Made by a program: the position numbers and the translations under genes. The notes under the pieces were generated by a model. The model saw only the letters and a program-made list of their open reading frames with translations. It did not search any database and was not told the DNA's origin. Shown here piece by piece: positions 53,699 to 59,311 of a DNA stretch of 59,311 nt; positions within the stretch are counted from its first letter, which is position 1, and the number at the start of each line of letters is the position of its first letter. The stretch comes from Paracoccus sp. UBA889 (GTDB lineage Bacteria > Pseudomonadota > Alphaproteobacteria > Rhodobacterales > Rhodobacteraceae): the NCBI GenBank assembly GCA_002294185.1, contig DBFD01000042.1, forward strand, positions 1 through 59,311. Direction: 5' to 3'.

Positions 53699-54562
53699 TC
53701 AGGTATCGCGCTCGATAACGAAACGCGCCAGGTCGCGCAAGTTTCCGGCCGCCTCGCCATAGGGTTCCAGCGCGGCCTCGGCCTTCAGGACATAGCGGCG
53801 GGCCTCATCCCTGGCGCCCTGCAGGCCCAGCAGCGACGGGAAGGTGGCTTTTCCCGCCGCCTGATCCTTGCCAACCCGCTTGCCGGTCACATCCTCGTCA
53901 CCCGTCACATCGAGAATGTCATCGACGATCTGGAAGGCCAGCCCGAGGGCGCCGGCATAATCGTCCAGCGCGGTCGTGTCCTCGGCCGCGATCAGCGGTC
54001 CGGCGCAGGCCGAAAACCGGATCAAGGCACCGGTCTTGGCCCGCTGCAACCGCTTGATCGCCTTCAGATCCAGCGGCTGGACGGCGCTTTCGGCAGCGAT
54101 GTCCAGGGCCTGTCCCCAGACCATGCCGCGCGCGCCGGCCGCATCGGCCAGCCCCGCGATCAGCCGCAGCCGGGCATCGCCATTCCCGATACGGTCAGCG
54201 CCCAGCAGGCCGAAAGCCAGCGCCTGCAAGGCGTCGCCTGCAAGGATCGCCGTCGCCTCGGACCATTGCACATGGCAGGTGGGCATCCCCCGGCGCAGGT
54301 CGTCATCATCCATCGCGGGCAGGTCGTCATGGACCAGCGAATAGGCGTGCAGCGCTTCGACCGCCGCCGCGACCGGCAGCGCGGCCTCGTCACCGACGCC
54401 GTGCAGCCGCGCCGATTCCATGACCAGAAAGGCGCGGATCCGCTTGCCGCCCACGGTCGCATAGGCCATCGCGTCGCGCAATTCGCCGGCGGGCAGATCG
54501 GCCAGCGCGGCATCCAGCGCGGTCTGAACCTGCGCCTTGACCTCGTCCAGTCTGGACAGCAT
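53699..54562 (-). CDS. ispA: polyprenyl (farnesyl/geranylgeranyl-type) synthase IspA
   Basis: Short-chain isoprenyl diphosphate synthase of 287 residues. The first aspartate-rich motif is DDLPAMDDDD in HAYSLVHDDLPAMDDDDLRR, the second is DDILDVTGDEDVTGK. GGKRIRAFLVMESARLHG is typical of IspA. The two residues inserted between the Asp pairs of the first motif suggest farnesyl- or geranylgeranyl-forming type. The ATG at 54562 overlaps the xseB stop (TGATG). The upstream part of the frame covers xseB. Confidence 0.95.
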   Translation of the reverse strand: MLSRLDEVKAQVQTALDAALADLPAGELRDAMAYATVGGKRIRAFLVMESARLHGVGDEAALPVAAAVEALHAYSLVHDDLPAMDDDDLRRGMPTCHVQWSEATAILAGDALQALAFGLLGADRIGNGDARLRLIAGLADAAGARGMVWGQALDIAAESAVQPLDLKAIKRLQRAKTGALIRFSACAGPLIAAEDTTALDDYAGALGLAFQIVDDILDVTGDEDVTGKRVGKDQAAGKATFPSLLGLQGARDEARRYVLKAEAALEPYGEAAGNLRDLARFVIERDT

Positions 54563-58021: not shown

Positions 58022-58097
58022 GGGCCCGTAGCTCAGTTGGTAGAGCAACTGACTTTTAATCAGTGGGTCACAGGTTCGAATCCTGTCGGGCTCACCA
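58022..58097 (+). tRNA. tRNA-Lys (anticodon TTT)
   Basis: Cloverleaf of 76 nt. The acceptor stem GGGCCCG pairs with CGGGCTC (one G-U), discriminator A and encoded CCA at 58095-58097. The D arm reads GCTCAGTTGGTAGAGC. The anticodon arm CTGACTTTTAATCAG holds TTT. The T arm has CAGGTTCGAATCCTG. Since the 3' half of tRNA genes is a common integration target, its position beside unusual DNA is notable. Confidence 0.98.
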
Positions 58098-58369
58098 CTA
58101 AACATCTGATATATATAAACTTATTTGGTCTTGTCGTTTTCGTCCGTCCGACGATCCGACGGCGTCCGATGTCGGACGGGGCGAAGTGTTTTCTCTGGCG
58201 CAATGTCTGCTGCTGTGGCTATTTAGGGCCAATGGGCAACCCCTCCGGGGTCCGGATGACAGCGGGAAAGACTGCCGGGTAGGCCCCCGACAAAAGCCAG
58301 GGCGGGTCCGGATGCCGGGCAACCCCTCCGAAAACTCACGGAACATCGTCAGTTTTAGGGGGCCCGTCC
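58098..58369 (+). other. AT-richer, repeat-bearing stretch after tRNA-Lys
   Basis: The first 40 bases are AT-rich (TCTGATATATATAAACTTA), unlike the surroundings. A 9-bp inverted repeat CCGTCCGAC/GTCGGACGG lies at 58144-58179. GGGCAACCCCTCCG occurs twice (58234-58247 and 58317-58330), and GGGTCCGGATG twice (58248-58258 and 58304-58314), in swapped order around a 45-base centre. No gene is convincing here. It probably holds the promoter and control region of the following two genes. Confidence 0.6.
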
Positions 58370-58627
58370 GTGGCTGATTATCAAGCATCTTCTGTCTGGT
58401 CCGACGCCATCACGCTGACAGCGGGCGATATCGTGCGGAACCGGGGATTGAACACGATCCTGGTCTGTGCGTCGGAACCGCCCGATCCCGATGACGCACT
58501 GGCCCTGCGCCGGGACGAACAGTTCAAGTGCGAAGCAGAGGTCATCGTTCGCATCGCGACAACAGGGAGCTGGGCCAGCACGCTGTCTGTCGCATCAGGC
58601 ATCCCTGCCACAACATCAAAAGCATAG
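58370..58627 (+). CDS. hypothetical protein, first of two tandem paralogues (phage/island-like)
   Basis: An 85-residue protein starting at GTG 58370 behind AGGGGG. It has no signal peptide or transmembrane segment. Conserved with the next protein is W10-S11, L16, G19-D20-I21, N24, G26, N28, L31-V32, P37-P38 and VRxATxG...VxSGxP. Codon use (GCA, TCT, TAT, CAA) is less GC-biased than in flanking genes. I do not recognise the family. The pattern of beta-rich, small, tandem proteins next to a tRNA suggests a phage structural or tail accessory role, but that is inference. Confidence 0.7.
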   Translation: MADYQASSVWSDAITLTAGDIVRNRGLNTILVCASEPPDPDDALALRRDEQFKCEAEVIVRIATTGSWASTLSVASGIPATTSKA

Positions 58628-58636
58628 GAGCAGTGC

Positions 58637-59311
58637 ATGCCATCAGTATCTATCGGAAAGGCATGGTCGCCCATGCTGGCCCTTGTGCCGGGAGATATCC
58701 TGCAAAACCAGGGCGCCAACCCGGTGTTGGTCAGTTCGGCCATACCGCCATCGCAGAATGAGGCAGTCGAGCTGCAGCCGTTTGAACGGATCGTGGTCCA
58801 GGCCGCCGTCGAGGTGCGGCTGGCAACGGCGGGAAATTTCCTCGGGCGCGTGAATGTCATTTCCGGCCTGCCCATCGGCAATGGAGCGTCATCCGCCAAT
58901 GTCGATGTCGTCGCAAGGCAAGCTGCCGCTATCGCGGCCGGAAAGGCCGATACGACGCAGGAAAAAACACTGGCATCGGCAAGCGTCGTCAGTGGGCGCC
59001 TGATCCTGACGCGGGTCGATGGCACGACAATCGAGGTCGATCTTCCTGCCGGCGGCGCGGCCCTCGCCGCCCCTGCGGTCATCGCCGCCCCGACGATCGC
59101 CGGTGGCACGACCGAGGGCAGCATCCTCACGCGGACGGCGGGCGATGCCAGCGGCAACCCGGCGCCCGCGCGCGAAACCGTCTGGCTGCTGGACGGCGTG
59201 GCCATCGCCGGGCAGACCGGCAACACGCTGGACACGACCGGCCGCGTCGGCGTGATCACGACGCAGGATATCTGGACCAACAGCGAGGGCACGGCAACGG
59301 GCACCTCGGAC
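58637..59311 (+). CDS. hypothetical protein with paralogous N-domain, cut by window edge
   Basis: Starts nine bases after the previous stop, behind TAGGAG, and is still open after 225 codons. Residues 1-79 align without gaps to the preceding protein, with 28 identical positions by my count. Then comes an Ala-rich linker (VDVVARQAAAIAAGKADTTQ), a segment with alternating strands (SGRLILTRVDGTTIEVDLPA) and a region (TVWLLDGVAIAGQTGNTLDT) that looks like an Ig/beta-sandwich module of phage tail or adhesin proteins. The full length and function are unknown. The first half has island-like codons, and the later half is more host-like. Confidence 0.7.
   Translation, partial: MPSVSIGKAWSPMLALVPGDILQNQGANPVLVSSAIPPSQNEAVELQPFERIVVQAAVEVRLATAGNFLGRVNVISGLPIGNGASSANVDVVARQAAAIAAGKADTTQEKTLASASVVSGRLILTRVDGTTIEVDLPAGGAALAAPAVIAAPTIAGGTTEGSILTRTAGDASGNPAPARETVWLLDGVAIAGQTGNTLDTTGRVGVITTQDIWTNSEGTATGTSD

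Follow-up and report, generated by a model that had tools for sequence, protein, structure and literature searches.

A duplicated module beside tRNA-Lys

The window, which is the whole stretch of DNA that was analysed, comprises the 59,311 nucleotides of an entire contig of Paracoccus sp. UBA889. Near its end lies a tRNA-Lys(TTT) gene (58022..58097, + strand; detected by ARAGORN and Rfam), which is intact at this end and is the probable attachment site of the element that follows. The tRNA is succeeded by AT-richer junction DNA (58098..58233), by a leader element of about 130 bp (58234..58369, + strand) that ends at the start codon of ORF1, and by two open reading frames. ORF1 (58370..58627, + strand) starts with GTG and encodes a free-standing module protein of 85 aa, identified by its paralogy with ORF2 and by a profile match. 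ORF2, on the same strand, starts at 58637 and is incomplete: the contig stops at 59311 inside this frame, after 225 aa. It opens with a second module domain of 82 aa (58637..58882). This is followed by a helix predicted with low confidence in an Ala-rich segment (residues 86-100, 58892..58936; block pLDDT 51-59), by predicted beta strands (residues 112-135, 58970..59041; block pLDDT 71-82), and by an Ig-like segment cut by the contig end (59054..59311).

The two modules aligned without a gap at offset 0, with 27 identities in 85 positions, or 28 if the GTG start is read as methionine (next best offset 11). This agrees with the initial annotation, which had counted 28 identities by eye, and the motifs that it listed are present. 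The Smith-Waterman score of the pair was 141, against 23 +/- 4 in shuffles, and none of 2000 shuffles scored as high. When the ORF2 domain was searched against its own genome, it retrieved ORF1 at E 4e-12. To judge by the sequences, ORF1 is a paralogue of the initial 82 residues of ORF2, and the duplication is real. AGGGGG precedes ORF1 and AGGAG precedes ORF2, both being plausible ribosome-binding sequences. The latter adjoins the ORF1 stop, suggesting that the two frames are probably co-translated. Codon periodicity was clear in ORF2 and weak in ORF1.

The base composition changes at this boundary. Measured in 500-bp windows, GC content is 0.58-0.61 between about 57,750 and 59,000, down from 0.68-0.69, with the windows that cover the junction DNA giving 0.58-0.60, in line with the AT-rich boundary that had been noticed beside the tRNA. 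A shift in codon use had also been proposed. GC3 is indeed lower in the two modules (0.65 and 0.71, against a window ORF mean of 0.81), a rough contrast since that mean was taken over ORFs pre-filtered for GC3 >0.7.

Beyond the module, residues 69-224 of ORF2 displayed 46% identity to a 1212-aa open frame in the prophage tail region of another Paracoccus genome (G489), and the Ig-like part had matches of 50% and 46% identity over shorter stretches in G441 and G428. In the AlphaFold model of the 225-residue ORF2, the module was kept at block pLDDT 84-97 and the prediction was unreliable beyond residue 140. The Ig-like label therefore derives from this identity, the fold itself lying in a stretch of low confidence. 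In the model, the helix at residues 86-100 is a possible coiled-coil neck. A 1198-aa protein of the prophage tail region of G489 (G489:C26 7908-11504) combines a match to PhoD-like phosphatase (PF09423) with the Ig-like segment of the window.

Recognition and spread of the module family

The module was described at the outset as belonging to no named family, and the searched libraries concur. Pfam gave no match for either ORF. PHROGs gave none for ORF1 and best matches at E 0.09 and 0.29 for ORF2, while NCBIfam held nothing meaningful for ORF2. We built a profile from seven modules, including both of those from the window (the ORF1 row thus scores 120.7 bits against a profile that contains it). 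At E 0.001 this profile retrieved 18 copies in 12 of 125 Paracoccus genomes, seven of which are rows of the profile and 11 of which are new. The copies outside the profile include those of G460, G490, G402, G407, G474 and G513 and the second copy of G483. The G439 copy (L032), which looks frameshifted after about residue 50, was also kept out. Three of the 18 copies are partial (G439, G513 and G460).

The copies are 24-38% identical to the second window module, and nine of the 18 lie within 1.6 kb of a tRNA gene (3.1 kb were scanned for G513). Named records that carry the module are P. maritimus YLB-12, P. haematequi and P. aminovorans HPD-2. The full ORF2 protein, used as query at E 0.01, matched 21 of the 125 genomes, many of them via the Ig-like part alone. 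In wider searches, a single module searched against a family-wide sample of 394 genomes matched its own genome alone, and the profile found one other, weak match in a family-wide sample of 295 genomes (G185, E 2e-4). In a genome-contig collection, 0 of 136 candidates were positive with the whole ORF2 protein and 4 of 26 with module A7. In a viral-contig collection, the counts were 0/38, 0/18 and 0/170 candidates, and 2/15 in one search. Three queries had no match in the phage set (E 0.01, 0.1 and 0.1), where one match appeared at E 0.5, and the plasmid set gave no match.

Predicted fold

An AlphaFold model of the module based on eight sequences (pLDDT 87, pTM 0.74) displayed eight strands, and is predicted to be a small jelly roll of the double-stranded beta-helix, cupin-like type. 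The structural search that the initial annotation had called for gave weak matches, many of them to cupins. Against the PDB, the best Foldseek match was a designed double-stranded beta-helix at E 0.022, with none at E 0.001. Among the 50 matches listed there were many cupins, together with gamma-carboxylase and other non-cupin entries. Against viral models (BFVD), the best match reached E 0.0047. Among the 50 matches listed, 36 were proteins of 77-110 aa, and two alone were named anything other than uncharacterised or none. Neither window module contains a histidine, and so neither has the conserved metal-binding histidines of cupins, indicating that the window modules are without the cupin metal site.

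Module contexts and partner genes in other Paracoccus genomes

Where the context could be read, most copies lay among phage tail genes, and the marker genes point to prophages of podovirus, contractile-tailed and siphovirus-like types. G407 and G474 are contractile-tailed by their marker genes, with a tail sheath at PHROG E 2e-117 (scanned in G407). In G474, the scan revealed a tape measure gene, and the gene that immediately precedes the module encodes a tail protein (PHROG E 2e-94; Pfam GPD at 29.0 bits, with a cut-off of 30.1). Two genomes are siphovirus-like: copy L061 of G402 has a J-type tail fibre upstream and a partner and an amidase downstream (scanned), and G490 has a J-type tail fibre upstream and, by eye, an amidase downstream. 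In G499, a tail fibre protein is encoded two genes upstream of the module on a 6.6-kb contig. G483 carries two copies, near tRNA-Thr and tRNA-Arg, in a context that looks tail-like by eye, and the G439 copy sits at a contig edge.

Taken together, a tail-gene neighbourhood at the end of a structural operon was observed in P. haematequi (G425), G407, G474, G402 (L061), G490 and G499. It was not seen for G444 and G460, in scans that covered the copies outside G483, G439 and G513. In G444, one module and its partner point towards tRNA-Lys. Farther along lie a DUF4325 protein and a protein assigned to a PHROG without known function, and four scanned neighbours of the module were not recognised as virion proteins.

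Three observations at these loci stand by themselves. The DUF4325 protein of G444 and a 418-aa protein (phrog_3364, unknown function), which lie beside the module (G444:C41 10381-12472), are possible cargo. The G460 copy (G460:C21 10046-10324) is a weak relative (E 2e-4) placed among genes that by eye resemble sulfotransferase genes; the frames after it are Ig-like or large and beta-rich. Contig G402:C1 holds three similar module loci (L059, L060 and L061), and the first two have transposase-like genes nearby.

In many relatives, one free module of about 78 residues directly precedes a protein that starts with a WPxxR segment. This segment lies at most 200 bases after the module in 9 of the 11 single-module copies that were checked, namely three of G402, two of G407, one of G474, two of G483 and one of G490. 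The partners in G444 and G499 are without it. Five partners (from G407, G474, G483 and two from G402) were aligned, and in these H-S (within GHS or AHS) and D-x-x-H are invariant. Pfam and NCBIfam did not recognise the partners as SGNH hydrolases; on the strength of these motifs, we consider them putative SGNH-hydrolase-like or esterase-like proteins. In the window and in P. haematequi, the second module is instead fused to the protein that follows, one such case being found in each genome.

The prophage of P. haematequi

The closest counterpart of the window was found in P. haematequi (NZ_UZWE01000024.1), where tRNA-Lys is followed by the leader, by a module, and by a module fused to a longer protein. 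The modules lie 0.3 kb from the tRNA-Lys, and the longer part of the fused protein had weak minor-tail and FN3 matches. This element extends over about 42 kb, from the tRNA (contig positions 96218-96143) to a perfect 49-bp repeat starting at 54304. The repeat consists of 48 bases of the 3' half of tRNA-Lys plus the next base, so that an attL/attR direct repeat is present. Among its genes are a head-tail connector (PF12236, E 7e-82), a major head protein, a terminase, a virion protein, an integrase and an endolysin. The element is a temperate podovirus-type prophage integrated at tRNA-Lys. The gene at the attR end is fibre-like, with weak matches to tail fibre and spike families, and the gene order implies that, once the phage genome is circular, this gene would adjoin the module operon with the attachment site between them.

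By coordinate arithmetic, the provirus catalogued as IMGVR_UViG_2885094732_000011 appears to stop near contig position 91187 and to miss the module operon, which lies between there and the tRNA at 96143. Because this IMG/VR entry apparently stops short of the module operon, such prophage ends may be lost from virus catalogues. On the opposite strand, the same prophage encodes a secreted-looking protein of 202 aa (L027 5065-5673, +), with a tail that we take to be VPLPA-CTERM-like.

The search for the rest of the prophage

The window assembly is 97.24% complete and consists of 79 contigs. Searching all of it with the leader, the tRNA, the last 132 bases of the window, and the integrase and portal from P. 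haematequi, we found no further part of such a prophage. A second 3' copy of tRNA-Lys was not found in this genome, and a tail protein of G489 matched the window alone. A contig scan took in each of the 78 other contigs up to its first 20 kb. Of the 45 among them that exceed 20 kb, 20 were also covered over their last 12 kb, so that with the window 1.53 of 3.24 Mb were included. Within these 1.53 Mb, 39 ORF queries from the P. haematequi prophage region gave no match at E 1e-4 beyond the modules and the tRNA stretch.

A wider query set, applied to the first 20 kb of the contigs, matched transposase-like genes, chromosomal genes and contig C57. This contig (4629 bp) matches head-region proteins of the G489 prophage, which by eye is of a Mu-like type. 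As the Ig-like part of ORF2 matches the same G489 prophage, the element in the window may derive from a phage of another type. Meanwhile, the gene beyond attR in P. haematequi sits elsewhere in the window genome, on its contig C41, and therefore synteny does not place the far end of the prophage. The window element may be incomplete or of a different phage type.

A repeated leader upstream of phage operons

The repeated leader is the least explained part of the locus. Five copies were found in three genomes: before ORF1 in the window, directly before the modules in P. haematequi and G444, and at two more positions in P. haematequi. The three cores in the latter, at contig positions 95934, 90354 and 69015, lie ahead of the tail-end, lysis and capsid operons of one prophage. 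The lysis-side leader precedes a 95-aa protein and a muramidase endolysin, and the capsid-side leader precedes the capsid gene. Over the ten pairs of copies, identity was 88.0-94.4%. The module-coding DNA displayed 67.7-78.8% identity over ten pairs, which is at baseline given that shuffled coding DNA (the control being coding DNA alone) reached 74.8 by the same loose alignment.

By BLAST, 5 of the 125 genomes matched the leader, with G489 (G489:C6) and G492 (G492:C28) doing so over about 38 bases alone. The 16-base core occurred in 52 viral stretches; two of these represented the leader, and both came from the contig with the P. haematequi prophage. A leader model gave seven matches in the 125 genomes. 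Five were the sequences it was built from, and two, in G503 and G429, overlapped long open frames and were set aside as chance matches. Six further local matches had E 0.12-0.79. In Rfam, the leader reached no family's gathering score, and there was no match with E below 4.

Elements of the put type are cis-acting antitermination or leader RNAs, and a conserved RNA structure is suggested, tentatively, by the alignment of the Paracoccus leaders. RNAalifold placed five helices in it, with 7 of 40 pairs changed on both sides, a count reached by 22 of 500 shuffles. The covariation score was reached by 2 of 500 shuffles and the number of pair types by 133 of 500. These values come from five sequences, three of them from one genome, and from a structure derived from the same alignment. 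The leader might instead be merely a duplicated promoter segment or a repeat spread by recombination, in which case the hint of structure would be chance. We regard the chances of this alternative as evenly balanced. It is favoured by the small number and shared origin of the copies, by the circularity of the tested structure together with its common pair-type count, and by the window copy, whose folding is not more stable than that of shuffled sequences (z 0.16 as RNA, -0.79 as DNA). It is opposed by compensatory changes such as C-G to G-C in helix 1, by the rarely reached covariation score, and by the lack of a sigma-70 promoter by consensus in the leader.

A proposed receptor-binding operon of a temperate phage

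Based on these findings, we postulate that a temperate phage at tRNA-Lys begins its receptor-binding operon with ORF1 and ORF2, and that the module is an adaptor or cap that was duplicated and once fused to an adhesin. We assign this reading a probability of about two in three, the matches of contig C57 to the G489 prophage weighing against it. The phage would have integrated at tRNA-Lys, with ORF1 and ORF2 opening its tail-end operon. The module would attach to the tail and either hold, or be built into, a protein that binds or trims the host surface. As in P. haematequi, one of the two duplicated copies stays free; the second is joined to the following protein, with its stalk and Ig-like part, and may there replace a separate docking start. 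We infer that the module occurs in virions with a docking role, and the element presumably resembles the P. haematequi prophage beyond the end of the contig. A phage origin at the tRNA, as initially suspected, is made probable by the relatives in prophage context and by the attachment of the P. haematequi element at the same tRNA-Lys. The suggestion of a capping, decoration or assembly module was a fair guess, except that the neighbourhoods of the relatives point to the receptor-binding tail end instead of head decoration.

Other roles for the module can be envisaged. It could be a tail or fibre chaperone that helps the adhesin to fold or trimerise and is absent from the finished particle, the fused copy being an intramolecular version. 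Its small size, its position directly before the WPxxR partner (true of 9 among the 11 single-module copies that were examined), the one fused case in each of two genomes, and the lack of any Pfam match or of a PHROGs match below E 0.09 would all fit. Phage fibre chaperones, however, are usually encoded after the fibre gene, whereas the module precedes its partner, and we consider this role improbable. We judge it equally improbable that the module is a separate surface-binding protein, a carbohydrate-binding decoration whose copies bind different sugars. The beta-rich predicted fold, the low conservation (24-38% to the second window module) and the esterase-like motifs of five partners are compatible with such a protein, although Pfam revealed no match to a carbohydrate-binding family. 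Somewhat less improbable, and still unlikely in our view, is that the window pair is a remnant of an old, partly lost prophage or satellite at the tRNA, without present function. The portal, integrase, second leader and second tRNA 3' copy were not found elsewhere in the assembly, and the four scanned neighbours in G444 were not recognised as virion proteins, as a remnant would predict. Yet both window frames are open, with plausible ribosome-binding sequences and with codon periodicity that is clear in ORF2, if weak in ORF1. Moreover, the contig breaks inside ORF2, and in an assembly of 79 contigs at 97.24% completeness the absent parts may equal an assembly gap.

The adaptor reading can be extended to the leader. 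A structured leader RNA might provide shared control of the late operons and also serve as a joint for the exchange of receptor-binding cassettes, with the module as a standard mount across podo-, myo- and siphovirus tails. The role as a joint is proposed because conservation is much higher in the leader than in the genes that follow it. We offer this extension as a long shot. That the module spreads over tail types argues for an exchangeable host-recognition cassette. If the adaptor reading is true, a single small protein fixes various host-gripping parts to tails of three unrelated types. This would offer a way to study how host-recognition parts are swapped between phages, and would give a name to a family that the searched libraries miss. 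We conclude that the module represents a real, unnamed phage-associated protein family, ordinary in kind, as the tail end of a temperate phage, and new in detail. What was first put forward as an undescribed system appears instead to be one component, as yet without a name, of temperate phages that are ordinary in other respects.

Comparison with known systems

The module shares with the cupin or double-stranded beta-helix fold its best PDB match and many of the matches listed, with TM scores (query) mostly of 0.5-0.6. It differs in the missing histidines of the window modules, and the best match remained at E 0.022. Two of the viral Foldseek matches, I2FLS9 and I2FLT0 from Pseudomonas phage tf, fit tf_60 and tf_61 by organism and length. 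In the phage record (HE611333, L171 34452-34999), these are tandem paralogues noted as similar to each other. The gene tf_62 lies between them and the SGNH-type tf_63, and a tail fibre gene is near. The phage tf paper describes an SDS-PAGE band consistent with tf.63 being a virion protein, and its main text does not mention tf.60 or tf.61 by name (PMC3517423). The likeness to the Paracoccus loci is thus one of small tandem paralogues placed one gene away from an SGNH-type virion protein. In contrast, there is no detectable sequence similarity between tf_60/tf_61 and the module, hhalign giving a probability of 0.3%.

The P. haematequi prophage shares with the window the same tRNA, the leader and the order of module and module fusion, and compared with the second window module its own two modules have identities of 38% and 30%. 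It differs in that its roughly 42 kb were found with both ends, whereas the window displays about 1.2 kb after the tRNA and its genome had no match to the portal or integrase. This type of prophage has precedents in the genus. A paper on Paracoccus Podoviridae prophages, which we take to be by Decewicz et al. (2019), does not use the terms 'tail fiber' and 'tail protein' in its main text (PMC6536676). It describes there eight podovirus prophages, all with tyrosine recombinases, seven of them at tRNA genes, of which one is tRNA-Lys (PMC6536676). These are alike in being of podovirus type and in integrating at tRNA genes, including, once, tRNA-Lys.
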